A DNA stretch of 64,000 nucleotides from Polytrichum commune (lineage: Eukaryota; Streptophyta; Polytrichopsida; Polytrichales; Polytrichaceae), in assembly GCA_950295325.1 (NCBI GenBank), contig OX485809.1:38595081-38659080 (forward strand), given 5' to 3'. The notes under the pieces are model-generated. The model was not told the origin of the DNA, ran no database searches, and saw only the letters and a program-made list of their open reading frames with translations. Numbering within the stretch: the first letter of the stretch is position 1; every line of letters begins with the position of its first letter. The position numbers were made by a program, and so were the translations under genes. Below, piece by piece: positions 3,743-58,555 of this stretch.

Positions 3743-5978
3743 TCACGTGACCTGACTGCCTCTTAAGGCACTCGACTTCCCAGTCACTGCCTCGCCATCA
3801 ACAAGGAGGCGAGCTTGCTCCTCCGCAATGGACACAATGGATTCCAAGTCAAGCTTACATAATCCTCCACCTTTGGTGCTGGTGGTGGTGTTGTTGCTGC
3901 AGGCGAGCATCCCAAGCTCTTCATCCCCATCCTCGTCATCGAAGAGGATTGGCACAACCTTGTGTCCAAGCTTACTCAATTCGCTGGAACTCGGACACTT
4001 CGAGTTAGCCCTGGCACACTCCGCAGCCCAGTCAATGCGAGATGTGATGAGCAGGATGCTGCAAGCACAGCATATCTGTGCAGCCAGCAAGCCATACCAG
4101 AGCCCTTGGAACCCAATTTTGAGCCAAAAGGCTGACACCACGGCAACCGGTGTGCCAACGATGTAGAAGGAGACAAACATGATCACAGCGGTGACGGTGG
4201 GGCGGGCACTCCCTCGCAGGATACCGCAGCCTGCTGTCTGTGGGCAGTTACCAAGCTCGCAGATGCCAATTAGTGGTAGAACAGCCGCTGTTAATGCAAG
4301 CACACTTGCATCCGAGGTGTACAAAGTTCCCCACTGGTGACGAAAGACGATGGTCCACACCACGCTTACAATCCCCACCGCGAAAGCACAACCCATGGAT
4401 ACAACACTGGCGGTTCGTGCCCGCTCTGGGCGATTCGCACCGAGCTCGTTACCCACGCGAGTTGACACCGAGGAGCCTAGTGACATGGGGATGGTGTACA
4501 TCAGCGAGGTTGTCTGGATCAAAATTGCGGTGGCTGCAACTGCGACTTGGGGATTGGGGAGGTAACCAGCTAGAATGGTCATAATCTCATACCACCACCA
4601 CTCGAGGCAGATCTGCAGGCAGCTTGGGAGTGCAAGGGTTAGCACTGGCCACCACTCACACAGACATGCTAGCGAAGGGTTAACCCATGTGTTCTTGAAC
4701 CTCCCCGAACACATCACATACAGAAGCATGAACGCCACCACATTGAAGTTGGTCATGGCGGCCGCAACTGCCACTCCCGGCACTCCCAGTTTGAATCCAA
4801 AGGCTAGCAAGAGGGTTAGTGGGATGTGGAGCAAAACACCAAGAGCGGAGCACCACATCATCGGCGCTGTCAGACCTTGACACCTGAAATAGTTTCGCAG
4901 CGGTTGCAGCAAACTGTTAGCCAGGAGGTCTGGGAGCGAGTACCAGCAGTAGATGCTGGCCACTGATGTGATTTCTGCGTTTTGGCCGAGAAAGAGCATG
5001 AGGGGCTCCATGTTAGCCCACAGCAAGCTGATGGGTATGCATGCGACAAGAAGGATGAGCACCGTGCGTTGTAACGTCAGCCCCACCGTTTGCCAATTCT
5101 TCGATCCGTAAGCTTGCCCGCAGATTGGGTCCATTCCGGAGGCCAGACCATAGAGCACCGAGTAGCCGGTGATGTTTGTGAAACCGATTGATAGAGCGCC
5201 TCCCGCCAAGCTCGCGCCACCCAACCGCCCCAGGCATAGCACAGACACCATCAATCTGGAGTAGGCAATTCCGTTGGCAACCGCCAGAGGTAGCGCAATC
5301 TTCATGAGCTCCATGAGCTCTTCCACAATCTGCACATCGACAAGTTGCACTAATATGTTTAATGAAACTCCAGCATTCCCAATAACCACTAAATTCAATT
5401 ACGGTGATTCAGAGCTCTCTCTCACACACACACGTACACACACTGGCGGATCAACACAAACAGAAAATTTAAACCTGGTGTGGTTGTTCGCAGAGGATTA
5501 TTCATCGAAGTGGAGGTACCGTCAAAGACTAATGAGAATTTTTATTCTACATATTCGATGAGGGTAGACAAAACTCTGTCTCACACGCACTGGAAGATCA
5601 ATACGAATACATGTTTACGCTTGGTGTGGTTGACGCCAGGAGATTATTCATCGAACTTGAGGTACCGTTTAAGAGGTACTCATTCGTTGAGATTCGTTGA
5701 GGGTAGACCAATGGAAAACTGCAGATTGCAAAGTTGGCTGAATCCAAGTTTTAGAGGGAACCATCACTGTTGGTCGTTCTACTTTGTTTTCAAAATGATA
5801 AAAAAACTGATAGTGCTTGCTTACGCATGCTAAGGTCTCAAGTAGCCAGCGAGGAACAACGAGGCGTTACCTGACAAGGAGAAGGCCACGATTGAATTTG
5901 AGCCTCTCGGGGGTCAATGTCGGATTCATCGTCCGATGACGACGACGGGGGCACCTGCAGGGTAATGGCAATACACAT
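3743..5978 (-). CDS. MATE-family transporter, DETOXIFICATION 48-51-like, two exons
   Basis: Multi-pass membrane antiporter that exports organic compounds in exchange for H+ or Na+; members of this plant clade sit in the plasma membrane or endomembranes. Exon 1 is 5978-5871 (36 codons, starting MCIAITLQVPPSSSSDDESD). Intron 5870-5330 has donor GTAACG and acceptor TGTGCAG. Exon 2 is 5329-3743. The product has 564 residues, normal for the family. Motifs in exon 2: IALPLAVANGIAYSR in TM1, GGALSIGFTNITGYS, the GQAYGSKN signature, LLQPLRNYFR, GSSVSTRVGNELGAN, and CGILRGSARP, followed by a hydrophilic C-tail with an acidic DDEDGDEE patch. The start was chosen because the Ser/Asp-rich N-terminus and MC opening match DTX48-51. 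An open frame beginning at 5398 simply reads 69 nt of intron. No damage is visible. The substrate cannot be told from sequence. Confidence 0.92.
5416..5708. repeat. Imperfect tandem duplication (~146-bp period) inside the MATE intron
   Basis: Two copies, about 5416-5560 and 5562-5708. Shared blocks include CACTGG.GATCAA, TGGTGTGGTTG, GATTATTCATCGAA, GAGGTACCGT and GAGGGTAGAC, offset by 139-147 nt. The duplication makes up about half of the intron and does not touch the splice sites. Confidence 0.8.
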
Positions 5979-7674
5979 CTTGCTCCCTCGCTAAATCTTT
6001 GGTCACAGACAATCCAACACCAGGCCTGAACTCGAATAGATTGCGATGAATGCCAGCTGGGTCCAAGGAGGACCACACGCACAACAAAACACCGTGAGGG
6101 GTTAGCTGGATAGCCTGTGGCTCGAAATTCGTGTTGCAACTTGGATCACGAGCATGAGCTTCGAGCTCAGAGATGGAAGTGGTAACACAAATACACGAGT
6201 TTAGCAATCTCAGTGAGGTGAAGATTGCACAAAACACCTCTCCTCTGATGCATAAGACATGGCAGCAAAGTGAACAACACTTTCCCACAAATTCCCCAAA
6301 AACCACACAACCCAGAACGGCTCACAAGCTGAAACCGAAAAATCTGGACTCACTGGCCACCAGGAAAACAGCAAAGAGAGATGCAGAGAGCTCGGAGGGA
6401 TAATAAGGGGAGCTTCCTATAAGAGCAGCAAAGACACACACACACACACACACACACATAAAAAGAAAGGTTTACACAGACAGAGGCAAAGACGAAGACA
6501 GAGAGTGATAAAACAGATGATGGCGTGAAATCAAGGCTATTAAGTTAGTTGAGGTGAAAGATGGGATTTCGGAAGGACTAGAGAGGATGTGCAGAAGAAA
6601 TCCAAGCCGCCGCAATTCATGACAAACCAACACAGGGGCTTAGCCTGCGATTGGAAGCCGCCCTCATAAATGCTCCAGCTATTTCTACCCATTAACTTAA
6701 GGAATATCCTCGCGAGTCACTTCAATACACATCACAGTCCACCATCCTCCATGCACCACCTCCACTGTCTCACTCTCACTCCCCTCCTCTTGGTGCAATC
6801 CTAAAACACTTTATATTCTTAAACTCCACCCCCCACTCTAGTACTTAGTATAACTCACAACCACAAAGTCTAGTCATAGTCTATAACCACAAAGTTGCAC
6901 AAACCTATATAACTGCCTACTTTGTAGTCTAAAGTTACCAGACCTGCCTGCCAGGAGACAATGTTTCCCTCCCTCTTCAAATTCAATCTAACTTAACTGG
7001 ACGCGATCGGTTTGTGGCATCGTAAAAGATAATCCAAATCCTTGTTTTGAGATTAACCAGATCCCATGACCAGCTTGTCCCTACTAGAAACGTCTGCAAC
7101 TGAGACGCGGCCTGATCTCGTGGCGATTCGCTTTGAAGATTACAGTGTAAGTTAGTAAAATTTGTAGGGCAGAGTTGAGTTAAGTTGCTGCATATGCTCG
7201 TTTCTGTAAGCTATGTGGAGAAGATCAGATTCTGGTTGTAATTGGACTTCCCAATTGACACGGGAGTGCAAAGAGTAAATTTTTTGAGGGGTGAGGTGCT
7301 GGTGCTAGGACTGAGAGCTCGTTGCATGGAGTTCGTTTTACAGTGAAAAGTAAATTATGATGGGGAGAGTCATGCAGGGCATCTTTGGTTCAGTTTTACC
7401 TGCAGTAAGACTTGATTACGCAAGAAGCTGTGAAATAAGAGGAAAAACATTCCAAGGATGTTGAGATGAACACTGCTGGAATGTAGTATCTATTGTGATG
7501 TTGAGATCCTAATAGATACAACAACTCAATAGCTGTTAAGCTAAGAGGCTCTTAAACAAACACTTGTTCTCTCGGCACCCATTTCTCGAAGGATATAAAA
7601 GGCGCAATTAGTGCAAGACGATTAGCAAATCCAAGTAGCGCCTGTAGCCACTTTCCTCACGATTCTTGAAGTTC
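5979..7674. other. MATE upstream region and intergenic DNA
   Basis: This is the 5' flank of the minus-strand MATE gene. It contains a CA microsatellite (6434-6458) and a purine-rich stretch up to about 6600 that may be 5' leader. I see no clear TATA box whose position could be tied to a start site, and no further gene. Confidence 0.4.
6434..6458. repeat. (CA)n microsatellite
   Basis: Twelve uninterrupted CA units lie about 460 bp upstream of the MATE start codon. Confidence 0.95.
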
Positions 7675-8170
7675 GTATGAGTATCCTATTCATGAATCAT
7701 TGTCAAAGTGAAAGATTCTCCAAGTTATTAAATGATCATATAGGCCCCCACCAATTAAGTTGATTATTGCAACTAGAATGTTTAACAAATTTCGAGCACA
7801 TAGTCCAATCTTTTTTTAACACGTGTCTTTTTGGTGTCCGCTCTTAGATCCACGTCCAACAATTCATCATGCAAGCATTGGTGTCCGTTTACAACGAGGC
7901 ACCGAATCAAACACATCTAAGGTAGATGTGCCTACCTAATGCAGTGTCTCATCCTAAATGGACACCTATATTTGAGTGGTGTATGGTTACGTGTGAGTCC
8001 AAGCATAGTCACTGAAAAAGACACATATTGAAAAAGAGATTGGAACCCGTGCCCAAAAATTGTTAAACATTCCAGTCACAATAGTCACCATAGTTAGTGG
8101 GGACCTATATGACCATTTACCAACTCAAAAGAATCTTCACTTCGACAACAAATAAAATACTCACATGAGC
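7675..8170. mobile_element. Foldback element with ~130-150-bp inverted arms
   Basis: The left arm (about 7690-7832) and the reverse complement of the right arm (about 8014-8150) match imperfectly over their length. Shared blocks are GTCAAAGTGAAGATTCT, ATGATCATATAGG, GAATGTTTAACAA, GTCCAATCT and GTGTCTTTTT. The ~180-bp centre has no coding capacity. Fragments of the same family recur at 29990-30070 and 30716-30870. No clear target duplication was found, so the exact ends are uncertain. Confidence 0.65.
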
Positions 8171-8360
8171 TCTGAAAATCATGAACAAAAATGGTTAAGT
8201 GCACAATTCAAATTTGCTAATCATCTCACAGTAATTTTTAATCTCAAGTCCTACGAGAGGTCGGTACAGAGAGAGAGAAAAGTAGTGTTCATCTAAGGCC
8301 CGACCCTTGCATTGCACCTTTACATTGTAAAGAAGAAGGGTGGTTGCCTGAATGTAACAT

Positions 8361-18600: not shown

Positions 18601-18748
18601 GATTGTCATACCTTAAAGTGAGGGTGGATCTTCTTTGGTACGCAATGGAAAGAGACCCCTAGGGAATATAGTTACTACTTATAATGAAGAAAGGTGGTTA
18701 CATTTTTATTATCTTTGCTAAGCCTACTATAGTGATGATTCCTATCTG

Positions 18749-18904
18749 TAATGTAACTATACCTAGTTACCATCCTACGATGACGAGGCGTCCTCAACGA
18801 CGAGGCTAATTGACAATATGATATTGTAAAGTAACTACACCTAGTTGCCATCCTACGACGACGAGGCGTCCTCAACGACAAGGCTAATTGACAATGTGAC
18901 ATTT
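18749..18904. repeat. 78-bp tandem duplication
   Basis: Two copies offset by 78 nt share CATCCTACGA, GACGAGGCGTCCTCAACGAC and GGCTAATTGACAAT. Both lie just upstream of the hairpin array. Confidence 0.85.
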
Positions 18905-19041
18905 AATGTATACCATGATGACGAGGTTGGGTGTATGGACACCTAGTCATCGACGGTAGTGTCATTGTAAGGTAAATACCAATATTGATGGATAATTGAA
19001 TATTCTAACCACATGTGCCAGTGTGTAAGCGGAGGATGATG

Positions 19042-19420
19042 GGAGCTAGACAACTCCTAGTTGAAGATGGATGGATTGGAGTTAGACAACTCCAGATTGA
19101 CAACATGTGCACTGGAGTTAGACAGCTCCGCATATAGTGCATTGGAATTAGACCATTCCATATTGAGAACATGTGCACATGAGTTAGACAACTCTCGATG
19201 AGGTGCATTGGAGTTGGACCGCTCCAGAATTGGAAAGATGAATGTTATTCATTGGAGTTAGACAACTCTTAATGAATAGATGGATCTAGTTGGAATTAGA
19301 CAATTCCAACTAGAAGAATGAATGGATGAATTTAGTTGGAATTAGACAATTCCAACTAGAAAGAAGGATGGATGAATCCAATTGGAATTAGACAATTGGA
19401 ATTAGACAATTCCAATTGGA
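19042..19420. repeat. Array of 11 inverted-repeat hairpins with a conserved AGAC loop
   Basis: Loops AGAC begin at 19048, 19084, 19120, 19150, 19186, 19260, 19298, 19344, 19390 and 19404, with a GGAC variant at 19216. Stems range from GAGTT/AACTC (5 bp) to TCTAGTTGGAATT/AATTCCAACTAGA (13 bp, 19285-19314). Stem bases change in matched pairs (GAGTT with AACTC, GAATT with AATTC), while the loop is constant. Spacing is 30-46 nt, often 36, except the nested last pair. It is noncoding as far as I can see. A 12-residue periodicity in one minus-strand frame (SCLTPxH) is a by-product of the 36-nt period or an alternative origin. Confidence 0.85.
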
Positions 19421-19450
19421 AGAATGAGATTGAGATAAGAGATGGAAGAA

Positions 19451-19607
19451 GGTTCTAGAAGAACCAAAGATAGAAGATTCATAGTAGAACTAAAAGATAG
19501 AGCTATGAATATGATACTTTTACTATATGTAAAGATAGAAAGTAAAAGTAGTGCTTCGGCATAAGAAGAAGCTCGGGGGAGGAGAGAGGACCTTTGGTCT
19601 CTCTCCT
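19451..19607. other. Run of further hairpins downstream of the AGAC array
   Basis: GGTTCT/AGAACC (19451-19465), TTCATAG/CTATGAA (19478-19509), TACTTTTACT/AGTAAAAGTA (19515-19550), and AGGAGAGAGGACC-TTT-GGTCTCTCTCCT with one bulged G (19580-19607). The stems are unrelated in sequence to the AGAC array but continue the same architecture. Confidence 0.7.
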
Positions 19608-21996
19608 ATGGTCGGGTGGTTGAGCTTTAACCAAAACATACTTGGTCTATGATTGTTTTGGGTTGATACGTGTTAGTGTGGAAGTTGGTGATAAACCGGT
19701 GAGAGGTTCGTTACACTATCAGTGTGTGTGTTACTATTTAAAGTAACATAGTGCCATAACATTTTATTGAGGATTTCAACTTCTACTAACGAAAGTTCAA
19801 TAGGTTGTTCGGACATTACATTGTAGAACATAAATGACTTTGCTTGGTAAAATATTACATTCCCATTGAATAGTTGTAACATTGCATAACTACGAATAGT
19901 AACATGCACTAATTGGGATAATTAGTGTACCAATGAACAGGGAGAACCGAAGGCTACACTAAATATGATATTTAGTGTCACCAATCCTAATTGTGTTGCT
20001 CAGTACTAATTGTAAACCGCAGTATAGTGTCACCAACACTATATATTAAGCCAACATTCTTTGACATTCCTTGTAATTTTTTTTGGGGGGTTACAAATTT
20101 ACAGTGTTGCAATTGTTGTTACTTACCAAGTGCTTTTTCATCCAAATTGCAATCATCCATGACAATATTTCATCACAAGTTATTGTCAAGAGAAGGTAGG
20201 GTTTTGGCCAATGGATGAACTCATCCATCATCCATGACAAAATTTGTTCACTTATTCATAAAAAAATGTCATCCGAAAAGTTACCATACTGACATTAAAT
20301 ACCATATGACACTAAATATCATATTTAGTGTAGTTGCATATGAACCGGTTGAGTTTGAGAAATAATCAGTTCAAGTTCACGACTTTAGGAAACTATCCGA
20401 TCATTTTAGAAAGAAGTTATGGAATATACCTTGAATCAATAAAGAAAAACCAAACAATATCATTATGTAACTAGTCAGACTTGGAAACACTAGGATCTCC
20501 ACCGATTATGTCCAAGAATCCTTTTGGACATTAGATTTATCCGTAAAGTTCTTCAAAGAGGGTCGAAACTGTGGGTTTGATCCTTCTTTGAGAATTTTTT
20601 TTTATTAAGAGTTTGTTAGCTCATTGTGTATCGGAGCCTAACCTGGAAGTTGGGTGACACTTCCGGGACCTCCTCTTTCCACCTTAGAATTGTTGAGAGA
20701 ATTTTAGGATCTAAAATTGGGTAAGGACGCATGGGACCCGCTGTCCTAAAACTCGAATCAACCTATGCATGGCTTGCTTGGCCCACTCATTTTTGTAGGG
20801 CAAGCTAGAAATCCAATTTGAACAGTTCAACACCACTCTTTGTGTATAATAATTAAAAAAAACTTGGATGACTCAAGTTTTAGGACTAAACCCATGGGTT
20901 TCATTTGATTTACTCTACAGATAACTCTTCTTGCCTACTATTGTAGAGGGCTCTCTATCCCGACATAACATAATTATTCCCCCTCTCAAATCATGCCATG
21001 TGTAATGCTCACAATTGTCTATACCACATGTTTCCCGTGTGGACACTACATTTTGAGACATGTAAAAATGAAATAGTGAGTCCTCTATGATACACCAATG
21101 AATGGGGACAACCGGTCGCTAGTTATGGATGAACCGGTTGATCTAGTTTGAGAAATAACTGGTTGAAGCTCATCAAGACTTCAGGAAAACTACCCATCAT
21201 TATGGAGGAATTAATAGAATACACCTTAATTCAATAAAGAAAATCCAAAACATGTCAACATCCAAAGATCATCTGCTAGTAACTGATGAACTTGTGGATT
21301 GAGTTTGAGAAATAAGCGGTTGAAGTTCAACACTTAGCGATTAGTTTAGAGGAATTTAGAGAATATACCCCAATTTAATAAAGAAAAACCGAAAGATGTC
21401 AACATGTAACCGGTTGATATTGAAAACACTACTAGGATCTCGACCAATTATGCCCAAAAATGAAGATGGACACTAGAGTACACTTGTAACAAGGTTGCCT
21501 AGAAGTAACCTAGTAACTAGTACCAACAAATAGTTTAGGAGATGGTTTGTTTAAGGGTGTATTTCCATGTAGGTCACTCGTCCACTAGATTTTAGTGTGA
21601 AGAGGAAAAACCTGACCAAATGTAGGTGGAATATAATGGGGTAGGGTTCGTATGTGCCAACTACAGAGTTGCTCCTATCTTCTCGAATCCATGCCCACCT
21701 AGCTATTCCTAGTTAATCTCCTCCTCCTAGTTAACCAAGGATGGAGTGGTAGACCAACATTGATTTTCTTGAGTCTTCAACGGGTCTCAATCCTTTGGTG
21801 ACCAACACATGTAAGGTGAAGATTCTTTAGTGGGCACGTGGACATCTAGTGGCCCATGCCCGCTGCACTCCACATTCTAGCCGATCACCAGAGTGTGGTT
21901 GGATGGTGGCTTGTGCTTTGACTACATGCGAACACCTCTGACCCACTATTATCAAGACTCCAATGGGCAAGCAACCTACATGGAAACTCACCCTAA
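19608..21996. other. Intergenic DNA holding family B and E copies
   Basis: Contains ATATTTAGTGTCACC fragments (19960-19985, 20300-20335), family B copies (20331-20525, 21091-21265, 21280-21465) and a family E copy (20555-20940). No protein-coding feature is recognised. Confidence 0.55.
20555..20940 (+). repeat. Repeat family E copy
   Basis: About 385 bp, shared with 16665-17065 (inverted) and 40785-41140. Blocks: GTTAGCTCATTGTGTATCGG, GAAGTTGGGTGA and AAACCCATGGGTTTCAT. Confidence 0.65.
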
Positions 21997-53719: not shown

Positions 53720-53885
53720 GGGATAGATTTTCTTATTCCCACCAAAGCCCCCCACAGAACCCAACAACCTACAAAGTATGGCTACTTTCTCTATGTGTAC
53801 CAATGTGCGCGAGTTGATGGCGTGAAACAACCCCATTGCTACAATTATACGACATTTTAATCTTTTCTCAAGAGGGGGTTCTGAA

Positions 53886-54164
53886 ATGAACAATTTTGCA
53901 CAAAGAGGATTGTTTTCTACGAACCGCAAAGATATAGGGATTCTATATTACACTTTTGGTACCATTGCCGGAGTAATGGGTACATGCTTCTCAGTACTAA
54001 TTTGCAAGAAATTAGCACAACTTGGCAATCAAATTCTTAGTGGAAATCATCAACTTCATAAAGTATTAACAACAACTCACGTTTTTTTAATGATCATCTT
54101 TATGGTTATGCCTGCAATGATTGGTGGATTTGGTAATTGGTTCGTTTTGATTCTTATAGGTGCG
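53886..54164 (+). pseudogene. cox1: Nuclear copy of mitochondrial cox1, first 93 codons
   Basis: Cytochrome c oxidase subunit 1 is the catalytic core of complex IV, normally about 525 residues and mitochondrially encoded. Here the frame begins [18 protein letters not shown] and runs through [13 protein letters not shown] and [15 protein letters not shown], then leaves the family abruptly after residue 93 (54164). Differences from plant cox1 include W8G, H14R and P87L. These, the truncation and the repeat context show a nuclear mitochondrial insertion (NUMT), not a working gene. The start is bryophyte/fern-like (MNNFAQR). The open frame continues to 54317 through unrelated sequence. Confidence 0.9.
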
Positions 54165-54220
54165 GCTTGGGTTGGTATACCGTGCGTCATGCAAGGTGCC
54201 TTCATTGTTGGGTCAATGAG

Positions 54221-55593
54221 TTACCTCGTCCTAGTCATCTCTAGTAGTTGCAACAACAACCTCCATCCTCCCCCCCCCCCCCCCCTCCCCGGTGCTTGGT
54301 TTGTTGCGCCATTGTAGTCAAGAACTTGTTGTTGCACATGTTGAGTATCAAACCCTTGTCTCAAACTAGGCTCCGCATGCACATCATGCATTGGATCATC
54401 GATTGAGTTGGAAATAAAAGTATCACTAGGCCCTTGCGGACCTTCAACATCTAACATTTGGGCTCAGGATGCATCTTGATGTTCCTCTTGGTCACCCAAA
54501 GGCGGTGGTGGGTTTGGGGTCGGTTGATCCAAACTGCTCAACAACAGGAGGGGTATTAGGGCACCAAGAAGGACTTCACGAGTGGGGGAGATTGGGGTGC
54601 TTGACTCAAACGTGGTGGGGTCATCCCACTACACTAAATAGGTAGATTAGTGTTAGATGAAGATTAGTGTTAGATGCAATAGTTACCTAAAACACTAATT
54701 TTCAACTGATATTACAATTAGTGTTTGAATAGGGTTTGAACAAATTATACCTTTTACGAGGTTCTCATATTCTTCTTCCTTCAATTCTTCATTCCAAGAT
54801 TTACAAAATATCATCTAACACTAAATGCGCTCATGTAAATATTTAAAGTTACTACTTGGTACAAATAGTGTTAGAGTTGACATTTAGTGTTCTAACACTA
54901 TAGAGACAATTTACATTTAGCATTTTCATCGACTATTAGTGTTTCCAACACTAATCTACCTATTTAGTGTAGTGAGAGGGTAGTAATATTTTAGGGATTT
55001 GAGAGGGGAGGGGGACAAAAGTGTTGGGGGCCCCATGCACTCCTTGCATGCTAGGGTTGCTCATTTGTTGCACATGGGTGTATGGCAAACGACGGGGTCG
55101 CCCATGTGAAGGGTTGTTGTGGGATGTGTTGTGTTGGGAACCCCGAAGGCAAGTGAATTAATATGCTCGACGAAGCCATCACCAAACATTGCGCCCACAT
55201 GCCTTGTATCACCTGTGTGATAATATCCGTGCTCGATGGTGGTTGAGCCATGGCCCATTGCCACTCTTAGTTTAGGAGTAGAGCCCTCAACTCTATCACC
55301 TCATTTTGCACCAAAGGTTTTTTGGCCACCACTTTTTGAAGACAAACACATTGCTCTCCTCGCTAAGCCTATGCTTATTGGCCCTCCTCCATGGTGAACA
55401 CCTTGGGCTTCACCCTCACCATATTGGCGAATGTTCTAGGAAGAAGTGGCTCCGACCTCAGTCTCTTCGCAAAGCACATGTCATCCTCATCTTCACTAGA
55501 GATTGTGATGTGTCCAACACTACATACACACTGTAGTGGGTTTTCCCCCTTCAACTTCCTTTGCTCTCTAAACACAGTCATGGCATCGTCCAC
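54221..55593 (-). pseudogene. Degenerate coding tract interrupted by a TIR element
   Basis: Minus-strand frames 55593-55375 (SSEDEDDMCFAKRLRSEP), 55251-55051 (MAQPPSSTDIITQVIQ) and, beyond the 54627-54974 element, DDPTTFESSTPISPTREVLL (about 54620-54565) and MLDVEGPQGPSDTFIS (54457-54221). They read like a low-complexity, proline-rich part of one protein. Removing the element leaves the same strand open on both sides. No family is recognised. Confidence 0.4.
54627..54974. mobile_element. CACTA-ended MITE with perfect 28-bp TIR (348 bp)
   Basis: CACTACACTAAATAGGTAGA starts at 54627 and its exact complement closes at 54974; the full 28 bp match. The interior repeats TTAGTGTT-like octamers many times. 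The 3-bp target duplication expected of CACTA elements is not seen (TCC versus AGA). Noncoding. Confidence 0.85.
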
Positions 55594-57479
55594 AAAGAAG
55601 CCAGGATAACCAATTTGATTAGAGGAATTGCGGCATGCATTGTTTTTTCCCGGCTAGGGGCTTCTAATTGTTGGATGTGGCCATCAACCCAACCTCGTCC
55701 TCCCCTTCAACCCTCGTGCCATCCTCCTCTTCATTGTCTTCCTACATGTCTTTTGCCTCCTAGTCTCCGCCCTTCAAGATGGATTGTCGGGATACACTAC
55801 AATAAGAGACTCAATGTCAATGATGAGGGCCTTTGATCAATTTATGCAGGTGGATGGTGCCTCACCCTATCCAATGGGTTATGTCTCCTCTTGGTAGCTC
55901 CTGGGTAGCCAATCTAGGACATCCATCTTTACTAGTGCCATTTGGGTCTTGTAAAATTCAAAAACATTATCCTCAATATATAATTATATATTCAACCCCA
56001 ACATTTGCACTAGCAAAGGGGAACAAGTTAACAAAACAATTTGGGGCACTGGAACCAAACTAAAACCATTAGTTTGGGGCAGTCAACCTAAAATAAGCAC
56101 TATTAATTTGGGTCGACCAACCCAAACTAAGCACTAAACCCTAAACCCCTAAACTTTGAATCGCTAAATGTTATACTTACCAACGCAACATACATAGGCT
56201 TTGTCCCTTCAAAAATGTTAAAGATAGTGACCCCTCTATGCATAAGGGTCCTCATCATCTTCATGTAGAAATCCATCCTCGACTCGTCTGTGGCATAATT
56301 CCTATATTCTTCCTCTTTATTGAGGGACTTTTGATTACCCAACCTTTCTAGGACCTAGAAGAATTTGCCCATTCTTGGACATTGGGTTGTCTCCGCGCTT
56401 GAAGAACTTTGTTTCGTATATGAAGTAAAGGCATATAATATTGATGACCTTGTTGTTTTTAGTCTTCCAAGGTCAAGTACGCTCTTTTTGCAGGGCCAAA
56501 AATATAGTCATATTTTGTTACAACATAATCCGTCTGCAAGTTCCTCACAATTTTGTAAACTTGCTCAACCCTCCTATCTTCCACTATCCACAACCACGCT
56601 TGGGGTTCCCTCAGCTTGGGACTAGCATAATCAATAAACTTGAAGACAAAAGGCTCGTAGAATGGGGTGCTAATTGTGCCCTCAAATGAACTCTCGGGAA
56701 TGTTCCTAAAGTCCATAATTCCAAAGGAGAGGTGGCATTTTGCTTTCGTCCTTATGGCCAACCTTGGATATTCAAGGGTTCCAATGTAATTTGGTTGAAA
56801 TGTGAGTCGCCCTCAAACCAAACAATCAATTTCTCTTTGATGAAGTTCAAGAAAACCCGCATTATGTAGTTGGAAAATACTCAATCTTGCCCCCCTTGAC
56901 AATCTTGGACTTCAAGTACTCTTCTTCTGCCTCCCGGATAAGAGTGACCATGGATGCATTGGTGAACTTGTACTTAGCCTTGAATGCCCTCTAGTTCTCA
57001 TGGTCGACATCCCCGTCAACAACAAAGTTCATTTGCGGCATAAGCTTGCTAAGCTCCTAGACTATCGTTGTCTTTTTCTTTTCTTTATTTTTTATTTTTT
57101 TAGTTCTCAATCCTTTCCTTCATTGTATAGCAAGAGGGAACGAAGGCTTTTGGTTTAGAGAACACAATGTTGGGATGCACCCAACATCTCTTCATGGTTG
57201 GCTGTCGCAACCCTTGCTAGCCCCCCTTGACAATCTTGCCAATTTTCAATTCTAGCAAAGGTTACGAGCGCTAACCATTCGCATTCCGCCATGCTAATGA
57301 TTAGCTCCTCCTACCCCGGACCTTATAGTTCATAGGAGGGAACCAACCCTCCTACTTTGCTTTCGGGACTCACCCCTTAATTGGTAACCCATTCCTAGAT
57401 GTGGACTTCCATCCATGGAAGTCCAATCCCATGTTGATCATCGCATTGCCGGAGCAACACTACAACAACCCGAACCATA

Positions 57480-58110
57480 CTAGGCAACTATGGCCTCACA
57501 ATGGGCCAATGCCCATGGAGGCCTTGCCGTTCGGCCTCGGGTGGGTGAGGCCACACCACCTCACCCATATAAGCCTCTAGGACTTCACGCGGGGCCCCTA
57601 CCCCACCGTCAACCAACCTCTTGTCTCTCTACCAAGAGTTGGGGCCAAGTGGACATTTTCCTTTAGCCGCTGGGCTAAGAAGCCTCTAGCAGCTTCAGAC
57701 CATCATAACTTCCTTGTATGATGTCCGATGCTAGCAACCAACCACTTCATCTTCATCTACGTTTCACGTAGATGCCGATGGACTCCTCACGTGCCCCATT
57801 TGGGCAAGTAATGAGTACGTTATGCCTCTTTGAACCTTGGCAGTCCCGGGAGTCACTCCCAGGCACTGCTGAACCAGGGCGCTGTCCCGGGACAGCGCCC
57901 CACTCAAATGGCCATAACTCCTAGCTCACACCTCCGATTGAGGTGTTCTTGAGCTTTCTAGAATCACCACGCCATGAGCTACGCATAACTCATGGCCTTA
58001 CCCTTGTGCCTCCTAATCTTCGTGGGTGGGAGGCGTTCCCAACGCCCGGGGCCCTCACCCACACTAGGATCACTTGGGCCCTCTCACCAATGGCGCCACA
58101 AGTCCCGGGT
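57480..58110. other. GC-rich multi-hairpin block
   Basis: Within this otherwise AT-rich window lie ATGGGC/GCCCAT (57500-57515), GGGTGAGG/CCTCACCC (57543-57566), the perfect 24-bp palindrome with half-site GGGCGCTGTCCC (57877-57900), and nested GTGGGTG(GCGTT/AACGC)CACCCAC (58022-58062). AGTCCCGGG.GTCACTCC occurs twice (57842, 58100). It interrupts the surrounding minus-strand coding tract and may be a separate insertion. Confidence 0.7.
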
Positions 58111-58555
58111 GTCACTCCGGGGTCCCCTTTGTGCCCATGGTGTTTCAGGCACTCCTCATGGAGAGGTGCGCGACATTGGCGCTACATGGAGGATATGGGA
58201 TGTGGCCTTTATCATCTCTCTTGTGAGGCCTTGCAATGTCTTGAAGAGCTCCCTCACTAGAGGTTGCATCTGCTTGAAGTTTGAACATAGCTTTAACAAT
58301 ATATTGGTGTCTGGATCAATGAGGTCTCCGGTCTTGTATTTCTTGAACCCTAATTCCACTTTCTCCAAATGGCATCTGAGGAGGTTATTAAGTAGATCTT
58401 CCCCTTGAGCTCCTTGTACCTCTTCTACTTGTGGTAGACGTTATCAATAGATGAGAACTTGTTGATGATTCATATTTGAAAACATGCATGCAACACACAT
58501 GGGGATCTGGCTAGAAGCAAAAGAAAATGCCGTATGTAGAATACTTTAATTGTTT

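Follow-up and report, generated by a model that had tools for sequence, protein, structure and literature searches.

Clustered tandem palindromes in a Ty3/gypsy chromovirus LTR, a possible cis-regulatory array

The window, meaning the whole 64,000-nt stretch of DNA analysed here (C7:38595081-38659080), contains three stop-to-stop reading frames of at least 150 aa. By far the longest, a 551-aa minus-strand frame at 3743-5398, resembles a MATE-type transporter. A 163-aa stretch at 53826-54317 resembles a degenerate cox1 from mitochondria, of the kind left by a transfer of organelle DNA. An imperfect foldback of 707 bp at 7568-8274 matches its reverse complement at 68% identity, and partial relatives of it lie at 18.5, 30.0, 30.7, 38.2 and 44.8 kb.

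The feature under study is an array of short hairpin-like repeats at 19042-19420 on the plus strand. It occupies positions 296-674 of a 969-bp solo LTR (18747-19715, plus strand), which begins with TGTAATG, ends with CGTTACA, has the termini TG...CA and is flanked by a perfect 5-bp target-site duplication (TSD), CTATC, at 18742-18746 and 19716-19720. The LTR opens with a pair of 78-bp tandem repeats (18747-18902) that are 91% alike. In most of the 20 loci whose flanks we compared, similarity to the window begins at 18734-18747 and ends at 19713-19738; in L041, L044 and L049 it begins later or ends earlier. A perfect 5-bp TSD was found in 14 of these 20 fetched loci and four matching bases of five in one more, while L039 and L043 had none and the ends of L041, L044 and L049 were not placed. 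The stretch is identified as a solo LTR because copies share its ends, because these ends are TG...CA and because CTATC is duplicated on either side; that the array-bearing stretch is the host LTR is close to certain. The solo LTR is the remnant of recombination between two LTRs.

Several other readings of the locus were rejected. A TIR DNA transposon at about 18.64-19.93 kb, guessed from clusters of GTAAC/GTTAC at 18.65-18.85 and 19.70-19.90 kb, is wrong because comparison of copies puts the actual termini at 18747 and 19715; the right-hand cluster extends beyond the LTR. A MITE or foldback was discarded on account of the weak inverted match between the flanks. The array was also dismissed as coding sequence, as only short frames run across it (the longest 79 aa, on the minus strand), and a six-frame Pfam search of 14.0-24.0 kb at E 0.01 returned no match. 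Adjoining the LTR, a MITE-like element at 19956-20331 carries palindromic terminal inverted repeats of about 23 bp (ACACTAAATA tga TATTTAGTGT), and similar copies of it occur in L036, L037 and L045.

We searched the window's own genome (407.8 Mb in 64 contigs) for further copies. Near-full arrays were found at no fewer than 40 places including the window's, at 94-100% identity, on C1-C7 and on both strands. This count is a lower bound, since scoring covered only 40 of the 643 candidates from a first look, and it contradicts the possibility, considered in the original prediction, that the genome holds no other arrays. One of the places, L050 (C1:4184800-4194700), is a full-length relative with two LTRs in the same orientation, at 840-1795 and 7530-8306. 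The second is cut off at LTR position 791, and the pair differs at 4 of 777 bases (0.5%). L050 has a PBS-like sequence, TTGGTATCAGAGC, with ATTGGTATCAGAGC directly 3' of the first LTR, and a PPT, AGGGGGAGAT, directly 5' of the second. Read with stops as X, its frames match the Pfam families Retrotrans_gag, RVP_2, RVT_1, RT_RNaseH, Integrase_H2C2, SH3_Tf2-1 and Chromo, in the order gag-PR-RT-RH-INT with a chromodomain. The Chromo match scores 28.2 bits, above the cut-off of 25.1; the rve core reaches just 22.6 bits, below its cut-off of 32.6. The best solved relative is the Ty3 Gag-Pol. The host of the array is a Ty3/gypsy chromovirus, and its sense strand is the window's plus strand.

This chromovirus family has moved recently. 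The window LTR shows no differences from those of L031 and L032 over the aligned bases, an indel excluded, and a sister subfamily, at 96% over the integrase-chromodomain region, has at least nine places with a 1539-aa frame, eight of them stop-free within the match. A TATA-like CTATATG, the putative promoter, lies at 19523-19529 on the plus strand, about 100 bp 3' of the array, as examined in aligned copies; relatives have CTATATGTAA or CTATATATAA at this site. Because the plus strand is sense and the TATA-like box follows the array, the array probably lies in U3, a placement based on this motif.

The composition of the array agrees in part with the original prediction, which described eleven hairpins with a constant loop and complementary arms of changing sequence. 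Listing of positions confirmed ten AGAC loops, at 19048, 19084, 19120, 19150, 19186, 19260, 19298, 19344, 19390 and 19404, and one GGAC loop at 19216, spaced by 36, 36, 30, 36, 30, 44, 38, 46, 46 and 14 nt. These eleven loops form ten hairpin units, not eleven. Unit 10 (19377-19420) holds loops 10 and 11 and has outer arms of 13 bp, split by a 14-bp tandem duplication that is private to the window copy (19379-19392, as placed by alignment). The repeat is absent from all 23 other aligned LTR sequences, a set that omits L044, which repeats part of L050. Near the same site, L030 has a different insertion, of 20 nt.

The remaining units, all read on the plus strand, differ considerably in quality. 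Unit 1 (19042-19057) has a C.A mismatch at pair 2, unit 3 (19113-19130) has T.G at pairs 2 and 7, unit 4 (19143-19160) has a mismatch next to the loop, and unit 6 (19209-19226), with the GGAC loop, has a loop-adjacent mismatch and a wobble. Unit 2 (19077-19094) pairs over 7 bp and unit 5 (19181-19194) over 5 bp. Unit 7 (19247-19277) combines 5 bp with outer ATTCATT/AATGAAT arms across an internal loop. Unit 8 (19285-19314) has 13 bp, and unit 9 (19331-19360) has 13 positions including one T.G. Counted outward from loops 1 to 11, the uninterrupted Watson-Crick runs are 1, 7, 1, 0, 5, 0, 5, 13, 11, 4 and 11. A non-Watson-Crick pair thus stands near four of the eleven loops; units 1, 3, 4 and 6 have a wobble or mismatch close to the loop, since their perfect runs are 1, 1, 0 and 0. 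The complementarity originally claimed for the arms is to this extent overstated. Long perfect arms (11-13 bp) are confined to the last units, within the 46-bp tandem repeats at 19271-19397 that bear units 8-10. The loop core is TTAGACAA and reads TTGTCTAA on the opposite strand, which contains TGTC, presumably as in auxin-response-factor sites. The loop is not entirely constant, since some copies, forming a subgroup, have AGAG-AG where the others have AGAC-AA in unit 9 (19344-19349); T.G stands at pair 2 of this unit in 8 of 23 sequences.

The array contains more hairpins than expected by chance. Six AGAC tetraloops with a perfect stem of at least 5 bp lie within it, against two in the rest of the 64 kb. 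Between 19036 and 19425, six hairpins score 6 or more, whereas 100 dinucleotide shuffles averaged 1.07 and never exceeded 3. Folded as RNA, 19030-19430 gave z scores of -8.0 on the plus strand and -9.9 on the minus strand, and none of the 100 shuffles was equally stable on either strand. In a scan of 200-nt segments with 20 shuffles each, the segment starting at 19201 came second on each strand, after a repeat at 49.0 kb that is unrelated to it; segments over units 1-5 reached z scores of only -2.0 to -3.4. The array as a whole is therefore structured beyond shuffled sequence, but its strength is uneven.

We do not claim that LTRs in this genome are generally rich in hairpins. In nine distant relatives tested downstream of pol, L064 being left out, three (L063, L069 and L072) beat all shuffles and six did not. 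These three also match another hairpin-rich dispersed repeat of the window, at 57201-58176, in which 901 nt contain 10 hairpins where shuffles average 1.2. This repeat is 89% similar to the L069 stretch downstream of pol and 79% similar in L072, and also occurs in L063, L064 and L067. Outside the genome, a scan for the stem-loop pattern returned 18 prokaryotic and 3 viral stretches. A left arm matching at both units was seen in one of 48 pattern pairs (L005), which we took as chance, and a plasmid search for the array gave no match.

Such folding could mean that the array chiefly gives rise to small RNAs from its hairpins, or that host silencing is directed at it. The strong predicted folding of both strands agrees with this, as does the excess of small RNAs at the palindrome clusters of maize Sireviruses (Bousios et al. 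2016, as reported in PMC10760457). No Rfam family matched at its gathering score; the only weak match was a microRNA family (E=0.085; 23.3 bits, where the gathering score is 97), which speaks against the idea. In addition, none of the stems exceeds 13 bp, which is short for processing by Dicer-like enzymes, though units 8 and 9 can pair across about 30 nt. We regard a mainly small-RNA role as very unlikely.

From the 118 matches of the search that listed the sister subfamily, we picked 20 stretches so as to span identities of 40-96%. The array is retained in ten of them (L053-L062), whose 3' LTRs are 80-87% identical. The number of units of about 46 bp varies among the nine relatives aligned from this group; L053 and L058 are rearranged, and L054, a near twin of L053, was omitted. 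The ten stretches downstream of distant chromovirus pol genes (L063-L072; 40-73%) gave no match to the window LTR. Since unit numbers differ among L053-L062 and no match occurs in L063-L072, the array turns over by gain and loss of units within one family. The LTR itself also varies at its 5' end: the window type has about 217 bp of extra sequence (18747-18963), including the two 78-bp repeats, whereas the LTRs of most relatives start at a point that aligns close to 18964. Among the ten relatives, only L060 has the long-form start.

The tandem periods of 36, 66, 46 and 14 detected by TRF raise the question of a satellite or minisatellite confined to the locus, in which palindromes arose by chance; the original prediction had set this outcome against its own reading. 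The array is 379 bp long, however, and its copies are dispersed, not assembled head to tail in a long local array. Of the at least 40 near-full places, the 20 fetched ones are parts of LTR copies, perfect TSDs flank 14 of these, and the hairpins exceed shuffles. A satellite is thus contradicted as a complete account and is extremely improbable; the array is tandem in its internal build only.

We next consider whether the arms have changed together. The null models were our own scripts, not R-scape. For the eleven window units, own arms paired better than swapped arms (P=0.0013, 13 pairs) and covariation exceeded a tree-based null (P=0.002). Within units 1-7, the corresponding values were P=0.18 and P=0.13. 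The signal comes from one inner pair, GC in six units and AT in five, and from the outer arms of units 8-10. Among 80 distinct units, own arms formed 629 Watson-Crick pairs out of 1040 against 539.1 when swapped, a value reached in 0 of 3000 swaps, with relatedness uncontrolled.

Fourteen LTRs from several subfamilies allowed a broader test, in which 86 of 102 pairs were kept, 16 being dropped as paired in less than 50% or having too few letters, and the rearranged parts of L058 and L053 were blanked. The covariation score was 86 where a tree-based null averaged 32.7 (P=0.005), and 1053 cells were paired where the null gave 1021.8 (P=0.011). Units 1-7 and 8-10 taken separately gave P=0.041 and P=0.014. 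Three of the 86 pairs carry the covariation: pair 6 of unit 1 (GC in 9 LTRs, AT in 5) and pairs 9 (AT in 10, GC in 3) and 11 of unit 10. By parsimony, 6 two-sided changes stand against 94 one-sided ones. Covariation across the 14 LTRs is significant but thin. Some compensatory change, as originally proposed, has support from the tree-based null, while the idea that decay leaves pairing unbroken is not supported, given the excess of one-sided events. Among 23 closely related LTR sequences there were 40 one-sided stem changes and no compensatory one. Variability in this set was 1.06% in stems, 1.16% in spacers, 1.85% in loops and 1.87% in the remainder of the LTR (the second LTR of L050 omitted from this count). 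This comparison says little about selection in active copies, because most of the changes presumably arose after insertion.

One explanation of these data is selection for RNA structure: the array would be kept as a fold of the sense RNA, at its 3' U3, serving for example packaging, dimerisation, stability or 3'-end use. The excess covariation, the better fit of arms to their own partners and the sense-strand fold agree with it, and so does a lean of fixed non-canonical pairs on the sense strand towards G.U (9, or 10 with unit 2 pair 8, against 2 A.C, counted by hand). That lean is not significant, however (binomial 0.065; against singletons at 20:16, Fisher 0.16), and the antisense strand folds equally well or better. 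Units 1-7 of the window lack significant covariation, the predicted sense-strand structure joins units 8 and 9 into one hairpin instead of two, and the Rfam result offers no known family. We consider selection on RNA structure unlikely.

Alternatively, the array could be without function, a tandem repeat of quasi-palindromes that evolves neutrally while template switching, either in DNA replication or in reverse transcription, makes its arms match again. Stems can arise and be repaired in this way (PMC8794818), and the long perfect arms within recently duplicated 46-bp units agree with such a process. Two nearby pairs differ jointly between units 8/9 and unit 10. Compensated and one-sided changes stood at 4:3 in neighbouring units, as against 3:70, plus four two-sided uncompensated changes, in other window repeats; the 4:3 unit pairs were, however, of our choosing. 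A 7-nt segment to the right of unit 1 recurs reverse-complemented to the right of units 8 and 9, but these two hits are copies of each other (P=0.016 only if counted apart), and the left-flank control also gave one hit (P=0.07). We therefore set this microinversion aside as unconvincing proof of template switching. The window has no inverted AGAC loops, and the 40 stem changes among the 23 sequences include none that is compensatory. Neutral re-matching appears doubtful to us.

The account we prefer, to which we give a probability of about 0.5, is that the LTR of a recently active Ty3/gypsy chromovirus carries palindromic motifs in tandem, which act as a cis-regulatory array. The array belongs to the LTR and is copied along with the element. 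From its probable position in U3, upstream of the promoter, its repeated dyad-symmetric motifs may control transcription, as proposed for Sirevirus motifs. The array would then act mainly at the DNA level, in an enhancer-like manner, its dyad-symmetric sites binding host factors; this role, argued from analogy, is about an even chance. Unit number changes between subfamilies through duplication and loss of ~46-bp units. The arms would be kept only loosely complementary, with a few compensatory changes fixed between subfamilies, and the modest covariation could reflect RNA selection, DNA-level symmetry or template-switch repair. As a side effect, hairpins in the sense RNA could feed small-RNA silencing. 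Against a cis-regulatory role stand the near-equal variability of stems and spacers among the 23 sequences, the absence of compensation in their stem changes and the 94:6 excess of one-sided changes across the 14 LTRs. In the 66-bp repeat pair, too, hairpins and spacers have diverged about equally (8/36 vs 7/30). The unit-to-unit sequence variation of the longest arms fits a fixed dimer-binding site less well than it fits structure. A composite in which a Ty3 chromovirus evolved a U3 hairpin array independently of Sireviruses and keeps it as sense-RNA structure, with reverse transcriptase re-matching the arms by template switches within each hairpin, so that replication of the element itself preserves the palindromes, and with unit duplication setting how many there are, is, in our judgement, quite unlikely.

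Enhancer function of repeated U3 sequence has precedent in plants. The tandem U3 boxes of the Ty1/copia elements Tnt1 and Tto1 are transcriptional enhancers, and to our knowledge their units are not known as hairpins. In the literature on palindromic hairpins in chromovirus LTRs we found only work on nesting and insertion preference, most subscription journals lying outside the scope of our search. The original prediction regarded the layout as that of an undescribed type of element. This is not supported: the array sits in a chromovirus LTR, and palindrome clusters have been described in the LTRs of Sireviruses (PMC2829016). The palindromic motifs there, tabulated at 3-14 per 3' LTR, begin 200-400 bp from the LTR start and precede the TATA box. 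A CGG-CCG core is given there for 12 of 13 cases, Tnd-1 being without it, and the authors state that the motifs' role needs experiments. Like these motifs, the window array has many short dyad-symmetric palindromes (ten units) clustered in the LTR's upstream half, ahead of the TATA-like box, and high identity from copy to copy. Unlike them, it belongs to a Ty3/gypsy and not a Ty1/copia element, and has an AGAC core and no CGG-CCG. Its arms are longer, vary from unit to unit and covary in part, and spacers of 30-46 bp form part of the repeat. Given its Ty3 host and the lack of a CGG-CCG core, the array is not a Sirevirus motif cluster, although it may work like one.

Other known systems resemble the array in single respects. 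Among miRNA-like structures in maize transposable elements, hairpins derived from palindromic motifs are likewise concentrated in LTRs, there in Copia/RLC elements; Copia LTRs show a peak, whereas Ty3/RLG elements are reported generally to have no obvious one (PMC10760457). The window case is, by contrast, a Ty3 element with a hairpin array, in another plant. The template-switch hairpin model also predicts clustered two-sided changes and perfect stems; it was developed on RNA genes with phylogenies, while the evidence from the window is thin and mixed (PMC8794818). Tetris, too, is a mobile element with tandem repeats inside its terminal repeats, but it is a Drosophila DNA transposon with units of about 220 bp in place of short palindromes, and has no LTRs (PMC4079207). 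The array thus resembles the palindrome clusters of another group of retrotransposons, and its novelty is mainly its place of occurrence. Palindrome arrays in LTRs are best described from the Ty1/copia Sireviruses, in which they mark a cis-regulatory region and attract small RNAs. A Ty3 chromovirus with a Sirevirus-like layout and an unrelated core points to convergence, and because young copies and subfamilies with varying unit numbers coexist in one genome, this system could separate promoter function, RNA structure and mutational re-matching.
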